Positions 2,915 to 24,592 of a stretch of DNA of 30,818 bases are shown here, in pieces (position 1 is the stretch's first letter; the number at the start of each line of letters is the position of its first letter). Source of the DNA: a virus; the IMG/VR virus record IMGVR_UViG_3300025849_000144, positions 1-30,818 of that record; one strand, given 5' to 3'. The notes under the pieces were generated by a model that saw only the letters and a list, made by a program, of their open reading frames with translations, was not told where the DNA came from and did not search any database. The translations under genes were made by a program, and so were the position numbers.

Positions 2915-3361
2915 ATGAACACTCAAATTACTAAAAACGAAAACACTGTTAGCTTTAAATATTTCAACCCTGTATCAAAATCGTTTGATGTATACTATAT
3001 CAATAAGGAAAGTTTGGCGGCCACGTTAGTAACAAAAGATGGTAATGTTATCATCGCAACAGATAATTCAATGAAGCAAGTTATTTATTTTCACGACAGA
3101 GAATTTGCTACAGAGTTCGCAGAGTCATTAATGATACTTGCAGACGCTTCACCTGTTATGGTTAAATCATTCTTGGACGGAATCTTTTTCATCCGCCACA
3201 ACTCGTGCCCTATGGTTATATGCAAACACCAAGGTGATTATTTTAATCTTATAATTACCATTAAGGGACACGATCAGAACTCAAAACACGGTTTGTTTGT
3301 GCAAAAAGTAAGAGTACAGACAGAGAAGCAAGCAGAATATTTAATCAACCAATTAACTTAA
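2915..3361 (+). CDS. Unknown 148-residue protein
   Basis: Not recognised. It appears alpha/beta, with no membrane segment; cysteines occur at SCPMVICKH near residue 105. The start is fixed by AAGGTATA 12 bases before the ATG. The first codons (ATGAACACTCAAA) and 13 bases before them match the 2069 gene with one mismatch, although the proteins differ afterwards. It is the first gene after repeat copy A and has its own promoter. Confidence 0.65.
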   Translation: MNTQITKNENTVSFKYFNPVSKSFDVYYINKESLAATLVTKDGNVIIATDNSMKQVIYFHDREFATEFAESLMILADASPVMVKSFLDGIFFIRHNSCPMVICKHQGDYFNLIITIKGHDQNSKHGLFVQKVRVQTEKQAEYLINQLT

Positions 3362-3410: not shown

Positions 3411-3659
3411 ATGAAAAACGCACTTAACCCAGTAGACCAACGAGCAGCCAACAACCTAAAGTCAATATGGCTACAACATAAAGAAAAAAGAAAAACAACT
3501 CAATCAGAGTTCGCGGAGTCAATTGGCATAAGTCAAAGCAAGTTTGCTTTGTACTTAAATGGCCACTACCCTATCTCTCTCAACAACCTCGTTTTCTTTG
3601 CTGACGCATTAGACTGCAACTGCTCAGATATTCGACCAGAAGTAAAGGATAAAAGATAA
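3411..3659 (+). CDS. Small Cro/CI-type helix-turn-helix regulator
   Basis: 82 residues. Residues about 28-76 fit an XRE helix-turn-helix domain: TQSEFAESIGISQSKFALYL (helices 2 and 3 with the GIS turn), then NGHYPISLNNLVFFADAL. It lacks any dimerisation or protease domain, so it looks Cro-sized rather than a full repressor. Such proteins bind operators and switch transcription of neighbouring promoters. AAAGGT ends about 7 bases before the ATG. Its stop overlaps the next start (TAATG), so it is coupled to a small membrane protein. The target sites are unknown. Confidence 0.8.
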   Translation: MKNALNPVDQRAANNLKSIWLQHKEKRKTTQSEFAESIGISQSKFALYLNGHYPISLNNLVFFADALDCNCSDIRPEVKDKR

Positions 3660-3942: not shown

Positions 3943-3974
3943 CTATAGCAATAAAAAACAAAAGGTATAAGATT

Positions 3975-4469
3975 ATGAACATATCCACAGAATTAAAAAA
4001 GCACGTATCAGGTGAGTTAAGTATGTACAATAACAACAATATAATAAATATTGTACGCAAAAGACTAACAAACAAAGCTAATGAAAAAATAAAACTAATG
4101 GCATTTAATGTTAATGCAGCAAGAAAGCACCCACTAGTATCAGAAGTTACTTACGGCGTGACTAGCTATCATGACGATGATGTCGAATACTCAACAACAA
4201 GAATTAAGGTTAAAGTTGAGTTAGATGAGTTTAGGACAATATACAATATAGAATGCACAGCCAACGTTTGCGATGAGCTGTGTAAGTATATGTCCGACAG
4301 ATTCGGGCGGGATGGGTTTATACTTTCTAATGAAATTGTAAGCTTAAATAGTAAAGATGAGGAAAAGAGACAGATGATAATTGATTTATTAAGTAGATTT
4401 GAAAAAACCCAAGAACAACAACCATCCACCACGCCCCGAACATTCGGGGCTTTTCATTACCTAAAATAA
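3975..4469 (+). CDS. Unknown 164-residue protein whose end overlaps a terminator
   Basis: Not recognised. The first half is basic and helical; the middle alternates charged beta strands (TTRIKVKVELDEF). AAGGTATA precedes the ATG as in several other early genes. The last codons, from TPRTFGAF onward, are written by the terminator hairpin at 4433-4454, so the tail of the protein is probably a by-product of that overlap. Confidence 0.65.
   Translation: MNISTELKKHVSGELSMYNNNNIINIVRKRLTNKANEKIKLMAFNVNAARKHPLVSEVTYGVTSYHDDDVEYSTTRIKVKVELDEFRTIYNIECTANVCDELCKYMSDRFGRDGFILSNEIVSLNSKDEEKRQMIIDLLSRFEKTQEQQPSTTPRTFGAFHYLK
4433..4454 (+). terminator. Terminator inside the 3' end of a coding region
   Basis: GCCCCGAA (4433-4440) pairs with TTCGGGGC (4443-4450), followed by TTTT. 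It lies within the last 13 codons of the preceding gene. Confidence 0.65.
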
Positions 4470-4482
4470 TTTAAAATAAAAC

Positions 4483-4511
4483 TTGTAAAAAAAAATAATA
4501 TTAAGTATTAT
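4483..4511 (+). promoter_or_regulatory. sigma70-type promoter, AT-rich class
   Basis: TTGTAA (4483-4488), 17 bp, TATTAT (4506-4511), then TAATAATAAG. A small hairpin (AGGG 4524-4527 with CCCT 4534-4537) follows near the transcript start. The whole leader is nearly repeated at 4869-4925. Confidence 0.65.
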
Positions 4512-4565
4512 TAATAATAAGTAAGGGGAAAGGCCCTGACCTAAAATAATATAAGGACTAATAAA

Positions 4566-4865
4566 ATGAAATTAATATCCATAAGAATCCCAGATAATCA
4601 CCACACACCTAACACGCTAGAATCTACCGCAGGAACAGCCCTAAGGCTAATCAACGGCAGGATGGCTAACAAAGTACTGATACTACTACCAAAGGCTACG
4701 CCGTTGCGTGAAGAGCTTTTTGAGCACAATGAAAAATCAAGCGTAAAAATAATTGAAGGTTACGAGAAAGCGGCGGCGGTAGATGTTGGCGAGTTCGATC
4801 ATGTTATATATGGCCCCGGCTCGTTTAAAAGTTTTTATGAAATAATTAAAAGTAATTTAAAATAA
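4566..4865 (+). CDS. Unknown 99-residue protein, single-gene unit
   Basis: Not recognised. Alternating hydrophobic and polar segments (KVLILLPKATPL, then VKIIEGYEKAAAV and VIYGPGS) suggest a small alpha/beta fold. ATAAGGA lies about 8 bases before the ATG. It has its own promoter (4483), and another nearly identical promoter/leader follows it, so it is transcribed as a short separate unit. Confidence 0.65.
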   Translation: MKLISIRIPDNHHTPNTLESTAGTALRLINGRMANKVLILLPKATPLREELFEHNEKSSVKIIEGYEKAAAVDVGEFDHVIYGPGSFKSFYEIIKSNLK

Positions 4866-4868
4866 AGC

Positions 4869-4897
4869 TTGTATTAATATCCGGTATTTAGTATTAT
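4869..4897 (+). promoter_or_regulatory. sigma70-type promoter, AT-rich class
   Basis: TTGTAT (4869-4874), 17 bp, TATTAT (4892-4897), then TAATAATAAGG and the same AGGGGAAAGGCCCT leader hairpin as the promoter at 4483. Confidence 0.65.
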
Positions 4898-4951
4898 TAA
4901 TAATAAGGAAGGGGAAAGGCCCTAACCTAAAATAAATAAGGTAAAAATAAG

Positions 4952-5422
4952 ATGAATAATTTAATAAACAAAATCCAAAGCCAACTAGGTAAAATCGGAA
5001 CAAGAGAAAATGTTTTCGACATGCTAACAGCTGAAGAGCTTAAGGTTATCTTTATTAATAAAGAAATTAATCCAAATAATGGTTTGGCTCTTGAAGATGA
5101 GTTTTTAAACTGTAACGGCCAACTACTTGAGCAAATGACTGACTCAAAAAATTGCGACACTGATTATTTTCATGAATTATTATTAGACCATTTAGAAGAT
5201 ATGGATAATTCTGAGATTATCAAAACATACACCGAACACATCAACGCAATTGAAGGTGGCGAAGTACTTAGCGATAAGATGTTTGATTTTGTAAACAAAG
5301 AAACAACACAAGAAACACTTGAAGCTTACAACCTATATAGAGAGGTAGAGGCGGCGTTAGATGCTGACGTAATGAAAGCTATTGAAAAATACCAAGATAA
5401 AGCACTAAACCTAATGGAATAA
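4952..5422 (+). CDS. Unknown acidic 156-residue protein
   Basis: Not recognised. It is acidic and predicted almost wholly helical (long runs such as EAYNLYREVEAALDADVMKA near the C-terminus). AAGGT lies about 9 bases before the ATG. It is the last gene before the packaging genes, with its own promoter (4869) and a hairpin after the stop. Confidence 0.65.
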   Translation: MNNLINKIQSQLGKIGTRENVFDMLTAEELKVIFINKEINPNNGLALEDEFLNCNGQLLEQMTDSKNCDTDYFHELLLDHLEDMDNSEIIKTYTEHINAIEGGEVLSDKMFDFVNKETTQETLEAYNLYREVEAALDADVMKAIEKYQDKALNLME

Positions 5423-5429
5423 AAACAAA

Positions 5430-5445
5430 AGCCCCGAAAGGGGCT
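5430..5445 (+). terminator. Hairpin at the end of the early region
   Basis: AGCCCC (5430-5435), loop GAAA, GGGGCT (5440-5445). The following bases are TTAAAAAA, so the T-run is minimal on the + strand. The same hairpin core occurs at 17605-17627 with a good T-run. Confidence 0.5.
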
Positions 5446-5467
5446 TAAAAAATAAATAAAATAAAGC

Positions 5468-5496
5468 TTGACATTAAGTTCACTTAATATTATTAT
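5468..5496 (+). promoter_or_regulatory. Near-consensus sigma70 promoter before the packaging operon
   Basis: TTGACA (5468-5473), 17 bp, TATTAT (5491-5496). The predicted start near 5503 is followed only about 25 bases later by a strong terminator, so the primary product would be a transcript of about 50 bases unless polymerase reads through. Confidence 0.7.
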
Positions 5497-5502
5497 ACTT
5501 AT

Positions 5503-5551
5503 AACATATAAATACCTTATACTTTTACCCCTTACTTGTAAGGGGTTTTTT
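5503..5551 (+). ncRNA. Possible short leader RNA between promoter and terminator
   Basis: Predicted only from the spacing of the promoter (5468-5496) and terminator (5527-5551). No coding sequence fits. It could be a small RNA or an attenuated leader of the late operon. Confidence 0.3.
5527..5551 (+). terminator. Rho-independent terminator upstream of the terminase genes
   Basis: CCCCTTAC (5528-5535) pairs with GTAAGGGG (5538-5545); TTTTTT follows. The stem is strong and the T-run good. Confidence 0.75.
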
Positions 5552-5552
5552 A

Positions 5553-5581
5553 TTGATTAAATTATTATAACGTGATAAAAT
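5553..5581 (+). promoter_or_regulatory. sigma70-type promoter for the packaging operon
   Basis: TTGATT (5553-5558), 17 bp, TAAAAT (5576-5581), 26 bp before the small terminase start. It lies just after the terminator, so the terminase genes need not depend on read-through from 5468. Confidence 0.5.
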
Positions 5582-5607
5582 AAAAGAAACACTTTGAGGT
5601 TATAAAG

Positions 5608-6084
5608 ATGACAAATAAAAAATCAACCGCAACAGACAAACCGAAGGTTACTAAAAGAGTAACAAAGGGCAGGCCAAAAGCTACTAAGAAGATAGCAAGA
5701 GGAAAGCCAGAACACAAACCAACCAAAGCAAAGCGCGACACGGTAGCTATGCACGCTATGGTAGGCACGCCGCAAGAAGATATAGCCAGAGTATTAGGCA
5801 TCGACCCCAAGACGCTCAGAAAGCATTACAGGGACGATCTAGACCTAGCAACAGCTTCAGCCAATGCCGACATTGGTGGAGCGTTATATAGGCAAGCAAT
5901 TGATGGCAATGTATCAGCACAAATATTTTGGCTCAAGACTCGCGCAGGCTTTAGAGAGAAGAGTGAAGTAGATTTGACAAGCTCAGACGGTTCAATGACG
6001 CCTACAGGCTTCGACATTAACTTTATAGAGGCCAAAGCGCCCGATGTGGAAGATGATGACGATAACGGCAAGCACGACTACTAA
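5608..6084 (+). CDS. terS: Terminase small subunit
   Basis: 158 residues. The N-terminal 45 residues are very Lys/Arg-rich. Then follows a helix-turn-helix (about residues 46-75, MVGTPQEDIARVLGIDPKTL) and GGALYRQAIDGNVSAQIFWLKTRAGF, typical of small terminase subunits (residues 90-120); the C-terminus is acidic. The small subunit recognises the packaging site on phage DNA and loads the large subunit. It lies 12 bases before the large subunit gene, the usual order. GAGG lies about 9 bases before the ATG. Confidence 0.85.
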   Translation: MTNKKSTATDKPKVTKRVTKGRPKATKKIARGKPEHKPTKAKRDTVAMHAMVGTPQEDIARVLGIDPKTLRKHYRDDLDLATASANADIGGALYRQAIDGNVSAQIFWLKTRAGFREKSEVDLTSSDGSMTPTGFDINFIEAKAPDVEDDDDNGKHDY

Positions 6085-6096
6085 CAGGGATTAATC

Positions 6097-7329
6097 ATGC
6101 CACGAAAGCAACTACAGATACCAGAATGGGGACGACCTTACTTCTCCCCTAAAAGGTACAAAGGCCTAAAGGGCGGAAGGGGATCGGGCAAGTCCCACTT
6201 CTTCGCCGAACTCGGTATCATACTGATGGTAAAACATCCAGAGCTTAAAATAGTTTCAGTTCGTGAGCACGCAGTATCTACCGCCGACTCAACCAAAACG
6301 CTATTCGTCGATAAGATTGACGAGCTTGGTGTATCTTCTATGTTTAGGATTACCGACAAAGGTATATTCAGAATAGGCGGAGTAGGTAAGATTATATTCA
6401 GAGGCCTGAAAGACCATACGGCTGGCGCTATCAAATCACTAGAAGGTTTTGATATAGCATGGGTGGAAGAGGCTCAGCAATTGAGCGAGCGAAGCTTAGA
6501 GGTATTGGAGCCAACGATCCGATCATCCTCCATCTTCCCCAACGCCGAAATTTGGTTTAGCTGGAACCCTTACGTTGAGAGCGACGCGGTTGATAAGTTT
6601 TTTGCGAATGGCGAGGGTGATGATGACTTTATGTTATCGCACGTTAACTTTGAAGATAATCCATTTTGTCCGGCTGCCCTTATCAAGTCAGCAATGAGAG
6701 CAAAGAAGTTTGACTTCGACAAGTATCTTAATATTTGGCTTGGCCACCATCTAACACGCACAGACGACCAAGTATTTGGCGGTAAATGGAGAGTGGATAC
6801 ATTAGAACCAAATAGAAGAACATGGGACGGCCCTTATCATGGCTTAGACTTTGGCTTCTCAAAAGACCCTATGGCCGCCGTAAAAGTATGGGTAACAAAT
6901 AACAATAAATTATACGTAGAAAAAGAGGCTGGCGGGGTTGGAGTTGAGTTAGATGCTACCGCTAAACACGTAAAGAAAAAGATACCGGAGTTTAACGACC
7001 AGTCAATACGCGCCGACTCTTCAGCGCCGCAATCAATAAGTTACTTGAAAAGACATGGCTTATCGCGTATAATAGGCGTAGACAAATGGAAAGGCTCGAT
7101 CGTTGATGGTATTAATTTCATGAAGGCGTTCGATGAGATAGTTGTACACCCTGACTGCACAGAAGTACAAGGCGAAATGGCTAACTACAGGTATAAAAGC
7201 AATAAGGGGGGCGATCCGCTTACTGATATAATTGACGCGGATAACCATTACATTGATGCAATAAGATACGCCTTATGTCCGCTAATCAAAACAGACGGAA
7301 AATTCACAGATTATGGTTCTTTACTTTAA
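6097..7329 (+). CDS. terL: Terminase large subunit (PBSX type)
   Basis: 410 residues, normal for the family. ATPase domain: Walker A GGRGSGKS (residues 26-33), Walker B IAWVEEA (120-126) with E124/E125, and the coupling motif FSWNP (154-158). Nuclease domain: D251 in GLDFGFSKDP, D307 in RADSSA, and D381/D387 in DADNHYIDAIRYA. The motor packs DNA into the prohead through the portal and cuts concatemers. It follows the small subunit and precedes the portal. All key residues are present, so it is probably active. Confidence 0.95.
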   Translation: MPRKQLQIPEWGRPYFSPKRYKGLKGGRGSGKSHFFAELGIILMVKHPELKIVSVREHAVSTADSTKTLFVDKIDELGVSSMFRITDKGIFRIGGVGKIIFRGLKDHTAGAIKSLEGFDIAWVEEAQQLSERSLEVLEPTIRSSSIFPNAEIWFSWNPYVESDAVDKFFANGEGDDDFMLSHVNFEDNPFCPAALIKSAMRAKKFDFDKYLNIWLGHHLTRTDDQVFGGKWRVDTLEPNRRTWDGPYHGLDFGFSKDPMAAVKVWVTNNNKLYVEKEAGGVGVELDATAKHVKKKIPEFNDQSIRADSSAPQSISYLKRHGLSRIIGVDKWKGSIVDGINFMKAFDEIVVHPDCTEVQGEMANYRYKSNKGGDPLTDIIDADNHYIDAIRYALCPLIKTDGKFTDYGSLL

Positions 7330-7340
7330 GGAAGTAAAAC

Positions 7341-8567
7341 ATGAAATTTATAGACGGCATTCAAAGCCTATTTAGTAACCTTACAAACAGACGCAACGCG
7401 CTAGCATCTAACGCAGTTGCGCAACAACCACGCCTAGACGATTCAGCTGCTAGGGCTATTTATAAAACTGGCATAGGCTCAAAAATTGTTAGACTTAAGG
7501 CGGGATACTCGCTAGACGATACAATACAGTTCGAGCGCACGCACGACATGGAAGAGTTCAACACCTACCTCGCCCCTACCTTTAAAGATGCAGCGAAATA
7601 CATGGTAGGATTTGGGCGCGGTATTATCGTTATCATGCCAGAAGGAACGGACGACTTGTCTAAACCCATGCCACTAAAAGCCAAGCTTGATATCAAGACG
7701 ACAAGACTAAAAGCATTCAGCGGCGATATGGTTAGTGTAACGTCGTACGACACAAACTTACTTAGTAACAGATTCTTAAAGCCTAATGTTTATAGTGTTC
7801 GCGGTGAAAGTATCCACCACACACGCGTGTTAGATGTTACGTATGTTAAGCCGAGCGATCACGAATTACCTGAATACAAATACGGCGGCATGAGTGAGTT
7901 TGAAATTATCCTGCCTCAACTTATCGCCGATAGCGTTGTTCAACGCGCTACGCCTTCTATTTTGGAAAAGAGTTCAACGCTATTCTATAAGATAAGCGGA
8001 TTTAAAGAAACGATAGCGCAAGGCCGAGAGTCAGAGATATTGTCTTACTTTGGTACGCTTGAAGATGCTCGAAATATTTACGGAGCTGGCGTTATAGACA
8101 GCGAGGATGATGTGGAGGTTGTGCAACAAAACCTATCTAATCTTTCAGAAACTGATAACATTACGCTAAGGCGTTTAGCTATGGTTACTGGCATACCATT
8201 GGCTATACTTATTGGCGAGAACGTAAAAGGCCTTAATAGTACTGGCGATAATGAGATGCGAGTATTCCAAGATACGATAGAGACGCTTCAGAGTGATTAC
8301 TTACTAGAGCCTCTACAAAAGCTTTGTAGGCTTTTTGGTATTGATGGAGTACAATTTAAAGATAATCAAGGCGAAACACCTCTTAATCGCATAGAGTACG
8401 AATCAAAGGTTATTGATAACGCCGTTAAGCTTTATAGTATGCAGCAAGACCATGCTTTATACTTAGAAGAGAAGGGCGTTATACCTAAAGATGATTTTGC
8501 ATCAATGTTTGACGACATCGACCACGACAAAGAAACCGATAAAGGTGACGAAGATGGCGAAGTTTAA
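7341..8567 (+). CDS. Portal protein (DUF1073 type)
   Basis: 408 residues. The pattern DSAARAIYKTGIGSKIVRL near residue 33, then AAKYMVGFGRGIIVIM, the strands around SVRGESIHHTRVLDV, and GIPLAILIGENVKGLNSTGDNE near residue 280 fit DUF1073 portal proteins. Portals form the 12-fold ring at one vertex through which DNA passes. It starts 11 bases after terL; its last 14 bases overlap the minor head protein. The C-terminal tail is acidic (DDIDHDKETDKGDEDG). Confidence 0.88.
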   Translation: MKFIDGIQSLFSNLTNRRNALASNAVAQQPRLDDSAARAIYKTGIGSKIVRLKAGYSLDDTIQFERTHDMEEFNTYLAPTFKDAAKYMVGFGRGIIVIMPEGTDDLSKPMPLKAKLDIKTTRLKAFSGDMVSVTSYDTNLLSNRFLKPNVYSVRGESIHHTRVLDVTYVKPSDHELPEYKYGGMSEFEIILPQLIADSVVQRATPSILEKSSTLFYKISGFKETIAQGRESEILSYFGTLEDARNIYGAGVIDSEDDVEVVQQNLSNLSETDNITLRRLAMVTGIPLAILIGENVKGLNSTGDNEMRVFQDTIETLQSDYLLEPLQKLCRLFGIDGVQFKDNQGETPLNRIEYESKVIDNAVKLYSMQQDHALYLEEKGVIPKDDFASMFDDIDHDKETDKGDEDGEV

Positions 8568-9436: not shown

Positions 9437-9442
9437 CTTTTA

Positions 9443-9617
9443 AAGTGCAACGTTTTGTGACACCCTATATATACAATATTTACAAAAACGTTGCACTTAC
9501 TTAATTCGCTCCGCTCACTTTCTTTTATTTTTTATTATAAGCTATCCATTAAATCAACATCGTTACTAAACCAATGGATAAAACACTAGACAAAATAAAA
9601 CAAGCCCCGCGCAGCGG
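9443..9617 (+). repeat. Dispersed intergenic repeat, copy B (full length)
   Basis: First hairpin: AAGTGCAACGTTTT from 9443, complementary arm ending at 9498, loop with ACACCCTATATATACAATATT. Then TTAATTCGCTCCGCTCACTT and a T-rich tract. Second hairpin: TATCCATT (9543-9550) with AATGGATA (9573-9580). End: AAGCCCCGCGCAGCGG (9602-9617). Copy C is almost identical over the whole length. Nothing in it is coding. It fills most of the 9421-9706 gap. Confidence 0.9.
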
Positions 9618-9653: not shown

Positions 9654-9682
9654 TTGACTATGGCAAAAAAAACATATATAAT
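9654..9682 (+). promoter_or_regulatory. Strong sigma70 promoter for the head operon
   Basis: TTGACT (9654-9659), 17 bp, TATAAT (9677-9682). It lies 37 bp after repeat copy B and 24 bp before the protease/scaffold start. Confidence 0.75.
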
Positions 9683-12372: not shown

Positions 12373-12380
12373 TAATTTTA

Positions 12381-12410
12381 GAAAGTCCTTGACAGGGCTT
12401 TCTTTATTTA
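12381..12410 (+). terminator. Terminator whose loop is a perfect -35 box
   Basis: GAAAGTCC (12381-12388) pairs with GGGCTTTC (12395-12402) with one G-T pair; the six-base loop is exactly TTGACA. The tail is TTTATTTA. It stops transcription after the capsid gene. Confidence 0.65.
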
Positions 12411-12417
12411 CTATAAT
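12389..12417 (+). promoter_or_regulatory. Perfect-consensus sigma70 promoter nested in a terminator
   Basis: TTGACA (12389-12394), 17 bp, TATAAT (12412-12417): both boxes and the spacing are consensus. The -35 box is the loop of the hairpin at 12381-12402. Confidence 0.75.
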
Positions 12418-12452
12418 TTAGCTGTATTAATTCATAATATATACCTCACTTC

Positions 12453-12476
12453 AAAAGCCCCTTGACGGGGCTTTTT
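12453..12476 (+). terminator. Second terminator with TTGAC loop
   Basis: AAAAGCCCC (12453-12461) pairs with GGGGCTTTT (12467-12475), loop TTGAC, then TTCTTT. A strong terminator only about 30 bases after the start expected from the promoter at 12389. Confidence 0.75.
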
Positions 12477-12490
12477 CTTTATGTTATAAA
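12462..12490 (+). promoter_or_regulatory. Second promoter nested in a terminator
   Basis: TTGACG (12462-12467), 17 bp, TATAAA (12485-12490). The -35 box is the loop of the hairpin at 12453-12475. It leads the neck and tail genes from 12525. Confidence 0.6.
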
Positions 12491-16540: not shown

Positions 16541-16569
16541 TTGCATTAGTTGTTTTATTGAGTTATATT
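16541..16569 (+). promoter_or_regulatory. AT-rich class promoter of the S49 peptidase gene
   Basis: TTGCAT (16541-16546), 17 bp, TATATT (16564-16569), then AATAAT. It resembles the early promoter at 2834 more than the nearby late ones. Confidence 0.65.
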
Positions 16570-16592: not shown

Positions 16593-16616
16593 AAACTTTA
16601 TAAGAAGGTATACATT

Positions 16617-17600
16617 ATGAGTATTTTAAAAAAGAAACAAAAGACAAATGAAGAACTGAAAAACGAAGCGTTGAGCTACAGTGTTGATGAGCTTAAGGCA
16701 AAAGCGCAAGGTGCAAAAAAAATGTCTGCATTGAAAGGCGGACTTATTATAGCGCTATCATTGTGTTCATTATTATTTTCTTACACTCAATTCCAAGAAG
16801 CTATGGTCTGTAAGGGTATTTGCGCGGTAGATGTTAATGAAAGTATGATTAAAACAGGCTGGGCAAAAGGTGAGCAACAAAAAGAAGAAACAGTTTGGGT
16901 GGTTGACTATAAAGGAAACTACACTCAACAAGAATCTATTTTATTTAGAATGAAACTGGATAAAATCGCAGCTATATCAAAAACAGGTGATGGCCTTATT
17001 ATCAATATCGAAAGTAACGGCGGTGATGCTATTGCATGCGCTAACGATTACGATCGAGTAGTTAAGATGCGAACAATGCATGGCCTTAAGGTTTCAGCAG
17101 TTGTTGATAGAGCAGCACACTCTTGCGGATATTATCTAGCATCTGCCGCAACATCTATCTACGCTCAGAAAGGCGCAAGCGTTGGTAACATTGGATCGGC
17201 TATGACAATGATGACAAACCCTATTCAAGCACTGGTTAAAAAAGTAACAGGCGCAGAAGTTATTGTTATTGGCTCTACTCGTGCAAAAGAAATATTTGCT
17301 GGATCACCACTTAAGACAAAGGAAGATCACGCCATTGTCAAAAAGTACGTAGACGCAGGTGCTAAAAACTTCTTTATGGACGTTATTAAAGGACGAGCTG
17401 GACGCATTAACCCTAAAGATTATCCTACTGTGTTTAGTGCATACCCATTCTCGGCACGTCATGCAAAACAACTAGGCCTTATCGATGGTTTCGCAAGTAT
17501 CAGCGAAATACTTCAAGGCTATCACGCCAACGGATACACAATCAAACGCATCACTATAAACGATGTAGCAAAAGCAAGTAAGCAAGTATTTGTAGGATAA
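16617..17600 (+). CDS. Membrane-anchored S49 (SppA/SohB-like) peptidase
   Basis: 327 residues. A charged N-terminal part (1-38), one membrane segment (about 39-57, LKGGLIIALSLCSLLFSY), a linker, then an S49 serine peptidase domain: GLIINIESNGGDA (126-138), SCGYYLASAA (169-178, candidate nucleophile S169), GASVGNIGSAM (186-196), and K224 in RAKEIFAGSPL as candidate general base. The pair fits the Ser/Lys dyad of SohB-type enzymes. Host SppA degrades signal peptides in the membrane; phage S49 enzymes usually belong to the head module and lack an anchor. Here the gene lies after the tail tube, with its own early-style promoter and terminators on both sides, so it looks like an accessory (moron) gene acting at the inner membrane. 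Confidence 0.85.
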   Translation: MSILKKKQKTNEELKNEALSYSVDELKAKAQGAKKMSALKGGLIIALSLCSLLFSYTQFQEAMVCKGICAVDVNESMIKTGWAKGEQQKEETVWVVDYKGNYTQQESILFRMKLDKIAAISKTGDGLIINIESNGGDAIACANDYDRVVKMRTMHGLKVSAVVDRAAHSCGYYLASAATSIYAQKGASVGNIGSAMTMMTNPIQALVKKVTGAEVIVIGSTRAKEIFAGSPLKTKEDHAIVKKYVDAGAKNFFMDVIKGRAGRINPKDYPTVFSAYPFSARHAKQLGLIDGFASISEILQGYHANGYTIKRITINDVAKASKQVFVG

Positions 17601-17604
17601 TACC

Positions 17605-17627
17605 AAAGCCCCGAAAGGGGCTTTTTT
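17605..17627 (+). terminator. Terminator shared by two convergent genes
   Basis: AAAGCCCC (17605-17612), loop GAAA, GGGGCTTT (17617-17624), T-run to 17627. Strong on the + strand. On the - strand the T-run is only three bases; the stop codon of the minus gene lies in the A-tract. Confidence 0.8.
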
Positions 17628-17861: not shown

Positions 17862-17890
17862 AGTATATCACAAAATGCGGTGGATGTGAA
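17862..17890 (-). promoter_or_regulatory. Minus-strand sigma70 promoter for the orphan gene
   Basis: On the minus strand: TTCACA (17890-17885), 17 bp, TATACT (17867-17862), each one base from consensus. The predicted transcript start is about 17 bases before the start codon at 17838. Confidence 0.55.
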
Positions 17891-17891
17891 G

Positions 17892-18064
17892 GTGCAACGT
17901 TTTGTGACACCCTATATATACAATATTTACAAAAACGTTGCACTTACTTAATTCGCTCCGCTCACTTTCTTTTATTTTTTATTATAAGCTATCCATTAAA
18001 TCAATAACGTCACTCAACCAATGGATAAAACATTAAACAAAATAAAACAAGCCCCGCGCAGCGG
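17892..18064 (+). repeat. Dispersed intergenic repeat, copy C (full length)
   Basis: First hairpin: GTGCAACGTTTT (17892-17903) with complementary arm ending at 17943 and the same loop as copy B. Then TTAATTCGCTCCGCTCACTT and the T-rich tract. Second hairpin: TATCCATT (17990-17997) with AATGGATA (18020-18027). End: AAGCCCCGCGCAGCGG (to 18064). It fills the gap between the minus gene and the promoter at 18067. Confidence 0.9.
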
Positions 18065-24402: not shown

Positions 24403-24408
24403 AAAGTA

Positions 24409-24548
24409 AAGTGCAACGTTTTGTGACACCCTTATATAATAGTAATTACAAAAACGTTGCACTTACTTAATTCGCTCCGCTCACTTTCTTTTATTTTTTA
24501 TTATAAGCTATCCATTTAAAACAAACCTCAACCTCTCACTAATGGATA
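24409..24548 (+). repeat. Dispersed intergenic repeat, copy D
   Basis: First hairpin: AAGTGCAACGTTTT from 24409, complementary arm ending at 24464; loop with ACACCCTTATATAATAGTAATT, closest to copy A. Then TTAATTCGCTCCGCTCACTT and the T-rich tract as in B and C. Second hairpin: TATCCATT (24509-24516) with AATGGATA (24541-24548). The GC-rich end of B and C is replaced by a true terminator at 24571. Confidence 0.88.
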
Positions 24549-24570
24549 CAAAATCAAACAAAACAAACAC

Positions 24571-24592
24571 AGCAGCGATAGCTGCTTTTTTT
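24571..24592 (+). terminator. Rho-independent terminator after repeat copy D
   Basis: AGCAGC (24571-24576)/GCTGC-type stem with loop GATA, then seven T to 24592. It separates the spike gene from the wedge operon, directly before the promoter at 24596. Confidence 0.7.

Follow-up and report, generated by a model that had tools for sequence, protein, structure and literature searches.

In phage lambda, the pR'-tR' region places a promoter, a short RNA, and a terminator at the entry to the late genes. The lambda antisense RNAs OOP and aQ are transcribed across their targets. A published source gives these targets as cII and Q, and describes lambda 6S RNA as an Hfq-dependent sRNA with an unexplored function (PMC12197685). 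The same source states that P22 sar and the c4 RNA of P1 and P7 block the translation of ant (PMC12197685). StxS of Stx phages is made between pR' and tR' and binds the ribosome-binding site of stx1B (PMC7873438). Phage-made sRNAs with targets in the same phage have been described mostly as single cases (sar, c4, OOP, and StxS). The unit described here has the element order of pR'-tR' and is one of two in the phage.

Virus record and gene content

The window analysed is the whole stretch of 30,818 bases of the virus record IMGVR_UViG_3300025849_000144. It comes from a marine phage, has a G+C content of 0.38, and carries nearly all of its predicted genes on the + strand. The head and packaging genes comprise terS (5608-6084, + strand), terL (6097-7329), portal, and capsid. 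The sheath-like tail gene has its best phage matches in Vibrio myophages, at about 42-44% identity, and the best match of terL in viral_contigs is only 51% identical. For the stretch 4900-7400, the best record in the phages collection is Pseudoalteromonas phage SL25, with the match in terS. No close relative was found by capsid, promoter-pattern (8 stretches with one match each), or repeat-pattern searches, nor among the matches listed for blastn of the two units described below. The latter gave 282 and 5 records, with short partial matches among those listed.

Several elements recur in the window. An intergenic repeat of about 176 nt has four copies (2669-2844, 9442-9617, 17889-18064, and 24408-24583), with the arms GTGCAACGTTTT/AAAACGTTGCAC and TATCCATT/AATGGATA and a promoter-like site beside each copy. 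No further copy turned up in exact-pattern searches of viral_contigs and genome_contigs or in blastn against phages. A 108-nt cassette of promoter and 5'UTR is present twice (4463-4570 and 4849-4956, 81% alike), preceding the genes that start at 4566 and 4952. Several early promoters have in common a small 5'UTR hairpin and the pattern CTTGnA-17-TAT(A/T)TTAATAAT. The S49 peptidase-like gene 16617-17600 lies in the tail region and has an early-type promoter and an early-type start site.

Unit 1 upstream of terS

The preliminary description of this DNA named a near-consensus promoter, a terminator, and a second promoter in front of terS, and all three are present at 5468-5581. The first promoter, TTGACA-17-TATTAT (5468-5496, + strand), matches the consensus at 11/12 positions. 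The predicted transcript, RNA1, is about 50 nt long (5503-5552, + strand, with the start placed from the promoter) and consists of an unpaired 5' part and the terminator hairpin. The intrinsic terminator (5527-5546, + strand) begins about 24 nt past the expected transcription start and has an 8-bp stem with 4 G-C pairs, a loop of 4, and a following TTTTTT. This hairpin is the only fold of RNA1, at -10.9 kcal/mol, and the fold z is just -1.55. No open reading frame was seen in the leader of unit 1 and no alternative fold was predicted for it. The weaker promoter assigned to terS (5553-5581, + strand) exists as sequence, with a 9/12 match and a TG extension, but by itself it does not exceed chance, as 12 kb hold 50 sites of at least this grade vs 34.7 in shuffles.

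A hairpin 3' of gene 4952-5422 (5429-5446, - strand) carries a T tract on the - strand only. The 5527-5546 terminator would thus also end the transcript of that gene. A terminator hairpin covering 5422-5446 recurs at 17599-17623 (92%), where the T tract is on the + strand, whereas the 5422 copy has A's there. The unit may be nothing other than a gene junction, in which the 5527 terminator ends the 4952-5422 transcript, the weak promoter starts terS, and the short transcript of the consensus promoter is functionless. The genome as a whole is a chain of such terminator-then-promoter junctions, which is consistent with this possible though rather unlikely reading. It leaves two of the strongest promoter-like sites of the window (those of unit 1 and of the second unit described below) reaching only dead ends after 50-60 nt.

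The spacer of the unit 1 promoter holds a perfect palindrome, ATTAAGT-TC-ACTTAAT (5473-5488), a possible operator. Four sites with at most two mismatches occur in the window against 0.6 expected, and three of the four lie within promoters (1983, 4483, and 5468). The palindromes of these promoters (1993-2008, 4500-4515, and 5473-5488) are similar, with different offsets from the -35 box. They are possibly a common operator, perhaps for the Cro-like HTH gene 3411-3659.

Unit 2 behind the capsid gene

The second unit has the same element order. Its promoter, TTGACA-17-TATAAT (12389-12417, + strand), is a 12/12 match, and the -35 box lies in the loop of a terminator at 12380-12403. The predicted RNA2 is about 59 nt long (12424-12482, + strand, with the start again placed from the promoter) and ends at an intrinsic terminator (12453-12475, + strand). 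A putative second promoter for gene 12525, TTGACG-17-TATAAA, was found by eye and starts at 12462 in the terminator loop. Each unit has a further promoter-like site past its terminator. This argues against a leader attenuator, in which the stop would be tuned and a cellular or phage factor other than Q, such as a repressor or RNA-binding protein, would set the read-through into terS and gene 12525. The spacer palindrome and the Cro-like HTH gene would allow regulation of the promoter, but the unit 1 leader, in which no reading frame was seen and no alternative fold predicted, also speaks against attenuation, which is highly improbable.

The self-contained promoter-terminator units are not due to chance. 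Strict TTGACA-16/18-TATWAT promoters occur four times in the window (three on the + strand and one on the - strand) vs 0.09 expected. Promoters of at least 10/12 with a terminator 10-70 nt further on number two on both strands of the whole window, at 5468 and 12389. In 60 dinucleotide shuffles, such units had a mean of 0.05 and a maximum of 1 at 10/12, and none appeared at 11/12. Rfam covariance models gave no match at their curated cut-offs. The many sRNA family names obtained for unit 1 at a loose Rfam threshold were rejected, as every score was far under its cut-off. A common origin of the two leaders was likewise rejected, since their likeness is not significant and 265/3000 shuffles gave as good an alignment.

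Antisense matches to phage start sites

CATA..ATACCT is present in both leaders and is complementary to AGGTAT..TATG, the start-site word of four genes. These are 2069-2293 (74 aa, start region 2057-2073, target word AGGTATATTATTATGAA), 2915-3361 (148 aa, start region 2903-2919), 3975-4469 (164 aa, start region 3963-3979), and the S49 peptidase-like gene 16617-17600 (start region 16605-16621), all on the + strand. The word AGGTATA-(N)-ATTATGA, in the SD-to-AUG region, is common to the four. In RNA1 the anti-start-site word (5505-5517, + strand) is the complement of AGGTAT-N4-ATG. In RNA2 (12431-12446, + strand) it is one missing base away from the exact antisense of the SD-AUG regions of 2069 and 2915. 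On the - strand, AGGTAT-N2..7-ATG occurs only within the leaders of units 1 and 2. Because the word was noticed in the leaders before it was tested, and also served to group the four targets, the shuffle counts given below err on the optimistic side. The 37 start regions used come from the authors' own gene list and not from an annotation.

By edit distance to the antisense, RNA2 is at 1 from genes 2069 and 2915, 2 from 3975, and 3 from 16617. No shuffled leader out of 1000 came within one edit, and shuffled genomes held 0.03 sites each at two edits or fewer. The match of RNA1 at an edit distance of 4 is weak by this measure, being found in 249/1000 shuffled leaders.

Gapped alignment over the whole + strand places the best antisense match of each leader in the start region of gene 2069. 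Of the shuffled leaders, 18/400 (RNA1) and 22/400 (RNA2) landed on any of the four start regions, and 102/400 and 88/400 had their best match on some start region. The RNA1 score against any of the 37 start regions was equalled in 37/10,000 shuffles, and the RNA2 mean score over the four genes in 19/10,000. With the measures swapped, the counts per 10,000 shuffles are 364 for the RNA1 mean of four and 439 for RNA2 against any of 37. Among 6158 windows of the + strand, the best score places RNA1 first and RNA2 fourth, and the mean places RNA2 first and RNA1 sixth. Eight shuffled genomes (49,264 windows) contained 1 window as good as RNA1 by best score and 8 by mean, and 1 as good as RNA2 by mean and 11 by best score. 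Compared with the other promoter leaders of the window, 14 in all, those of RNA1 and RNA2 are the top two for antisense match.

Predicted pairing energies in context give a similar picture. For RNA2, the four genes take ranks 1-4 of 37 (-14.5, -13.8, -13.7, and -12.4, with the fifth at -9.4), and the mean over the four was reached by 0/400 shuffles. For RNA1, genes 2069 (-11.8) and 3975 (-11.1) take ranks 1-2 of 37, 2915 has -8.1, and 16617 comes twelfth with -5.7; the mean over the four was reached by 4/400 shuffles. The single best pairing energy is less special, being reached by 19/400 (RNA1) and 17/400 (RNA2) shuffles. When plain duplex energies are compared with those of GC-matched windows, RNA1 ranks 3/392 by best and 26/392 by mean, and RNA2 19/784 by best and 22/784 by mean. 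Without GC matching, 2004/6159 windows do as well as or better than RNA1 in mean duplex energy across all 37 start regions.

An unpaired stretch complementary to distant ribosome-binding sites beyond chance is thus indicated clearly for RNA2 and weakly for RNA1. As judged from sequence, RNA2 makes a good antisense case and RNA1 a suggestive one. The searches for close relatives yielded none that could show RNA and targets covarying. The functionless-transcript reading of the junction draws on the fact that AT-rich leaders fairly easily match AT-rich start sites, yet it would not lead one to expect both leaders to match the same start region. Two-codon minigenes on the - strand of the leaders (ATG TTA TAA and ATG AAT TAA) were also considered and rejected, with no - strand promoter-like site listed nearby.

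Genes 2069, 2915, and 16617 have a promoter type in common, so that the target set looks coordinated. None of the target genes has an assigned function save 16617, which resembles S49 peptidases. An antisense regulon, in which mostly early genes with a common start-site word would be shut down together, as packaging and capsid genes come on, by two sRNAs made from stand-alone strong promoters of the late region and pairing with that word in trans, is conceivable but doubtful.

Late transcription and the candidate antiterminator

The preliminary description had also proposed a late switch like pR'-tR'. In such a switch, an always-on promoter would be stopped at the terminator until a phage antiterminator loaded at the promoter carries transcription into the packaging genes. 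The position and form of unit 1 agree with this. However, PF06530 and PF03589, the Q families searched, have no match in the window record (30.8 kb, possibly incomplete) or in four comparison phages. In controls these models gave a signal in 6 and 7 of 14 genomes, above the cut-off in 1 each, and they would miss Q types outside the known families. As the record is possibly incomplete, an antiterminator may lie beyond the 30.8 kb seen.

Gene 4952-5422 (+ strand), suggested as Q-like from its position, does not bear out that role. Its protein is very acidic (pI 4.3, charge -20) and matches no family at E<=0.001 (PHROGs) or E<=0.1 (Pfam), with chance-level PHROG matches only, at E>=0.096. In viral_contigs, 16 stretches match its pattern and none is a relative. 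The predicted structure is of low confidence, with a mean pLDDT of 41.7.

The late genes do not appear to depend on one read-through promoter. Promoter-like sites lie directly 5' of later genes at 9654, 10830, 16542, 18067, 19759, and about 24600, those at 16542 and about 24600 having been picked by eye. The second unit behind the capsid gene is a further feature at odds with a single late switch, and so is the additional promoter-like site past the terminator of each unit. Such a switch is improbable here. The other product envisaged in the preliminary description, an RNA of about 50 bases, fits better as a prediction, supported by a promoter-terminator anatomy that is self-contained and by the antisense match to start sites of the phage.

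Relatives and Vibrio phages

A unit before terS is present in 3/85 relatives, all three near-identical, and absent in 82/85, which also speaks against a late switch (of 87 loci matched by terS, these 85 have at least 100 nt upstream). Within 2 kb upstream of terL, 90 loci contain 4 units, three of them near-identical. This is somewhat denser than elsewhere and counts in favour of the switch; the 90 loci remain from 100 after dropping those with less than 600 nt upstream and locus L163.

Vibrio phages VBM1, 1.154.O, PvVp04, PP270, and XM1 have a promoter, then a leader about 83-85 nt long, an intrinsic terminator, an extended -10 promoter, and finally an operon, with a metallopeptidase-like gene first and continuing to terminase. 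The first promoter of 1.154.O is TTGATA-16-TATAAT. Between the -10 box and the terminator, these phages agree at 85/92 to 91/93 positions, compared with 147/180 to 166/180 for the first 180 coding bases, and the former stretch is the more alike in 10/10 pairs. In Athena1, the terminator and second promoter are kept and the first promoter and leader are missing. The terminator and extended -10 promoter are thus found in 6/6 Vibrio phages, and the first promoter and leader in 5/6. The weak promoter at 5553-5581 of the window corresponds in position to the extended -10 site of the six. This layout is a positional analogy, as the sequences are unrelated and the phages are not the nearest terL relatives of the window.

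These phages bear on the alternatives in different ways. A conserved leader in the same layout before a packaging operon would suit a late switch, but Athena1 does without the first promoter and leader. The constant terminator and extended -10 promoter are what a plain junction would retain, whereas conservation of the promoter and leader in 5/6, above that of coding bases, is not. Given that this layout is seen again in other phages, with a first promoter and leader that seem dispensable, a separate RNA gene fits better than a sole late promoter. The leader of 1.154.O, the sole Vibrio leader tested, has no antisense match to start sites (196/500 simple shuffles were as good).

Before the Vibrio packaging operon, a conserved and unannotated promoter-leader-terminator is found at L165:35890-36057, and also in L166, L167, L168, and L169. 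Its RNA of about 115 nt has a fold z of -2.76 in L165. It may be a small RNA gene in its own right.

Proposed function

The best explanation of the two units, held tentatively and at slightly less than even confidence, is that they encode two trans-acting antisense sRNAs that block translation of a few of the phage's genes, in the manner of StxS. Each unit reads as its own promoter and intrinsic terminator round a short noncoding RNA. A near-consensus sigma70-type promoter would produce RNA1 of about 50 nt, which the intrinsic terminator of the unit would end. Through its unpaired 5' part, RNA1 would pair with the SD-to-AUG region of 2069 and less strongly with that of 3975, and RNA2 would pair with the start regions of 2069, 2915, 3975, and 16617. 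This pairing would keep ribosomes off the target mRNAs. Because one unit precedes the packaging genes and the other follows the capsid gene, the most plausible outcome is that the target genes would be turned down as late expression begins. The terS gene would be transcribed from the 5553-5581 promoter, together with any read-through.

If true, a pair of short RNAs acting on a common start-site word would be a simple way to coordinate the early-to-late transition at translation. Among the papers listed by the literature search there was no description of such an sRNA pair, which is not proof of its absence in print. The recurrence of the layout in Vibrio phages suggests that the position before the packaging genes should be checked for small RNAs in other phages.

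Comparison with known systems

Lambda pR'-tR' and 6S RNA: The window resembles lambda in having a promoter, a short RNA, and a terminator. In lambda there is a single such site together with a Q gene, whereas the window has two sites, no Q found, and many other late promoter-like sites.

OOP and aQ: These are likewise phage antisense RNAs on the phage's own genes, but each acts on one gene.

sar and c4: Both are phage antisense RNAs against the translation initiation of a phage gene (PMC12197685), as proposed for RNA1 and RNA2. They act on ant, in contrast to the window RNAs, which are encoded far from their predicted targets and would act on several genes each.

Vibrio phages: VBM1, 1.154.O, PvVp04, PP270, and XM1 share the element order, and no feature is annotated there in the records seen. 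Unlike RNA1, the Vibrio leader is about 83-85 nt long, is unrelated in sequence, and, for 1.154.O only, is not antisense to start sites.

StxS: This is a short RNA that runs from a strong pre-late promoter to its terminator and blocks the ribosome-binding site of a phage gene, which is the arrangement proposed here; its late promoter is under antitermination control and the RNA binds Hfq (PMC7873438). The window differs from StxS in that no Q was found, two units are present, and several predicted targets are joined by one start-site word.
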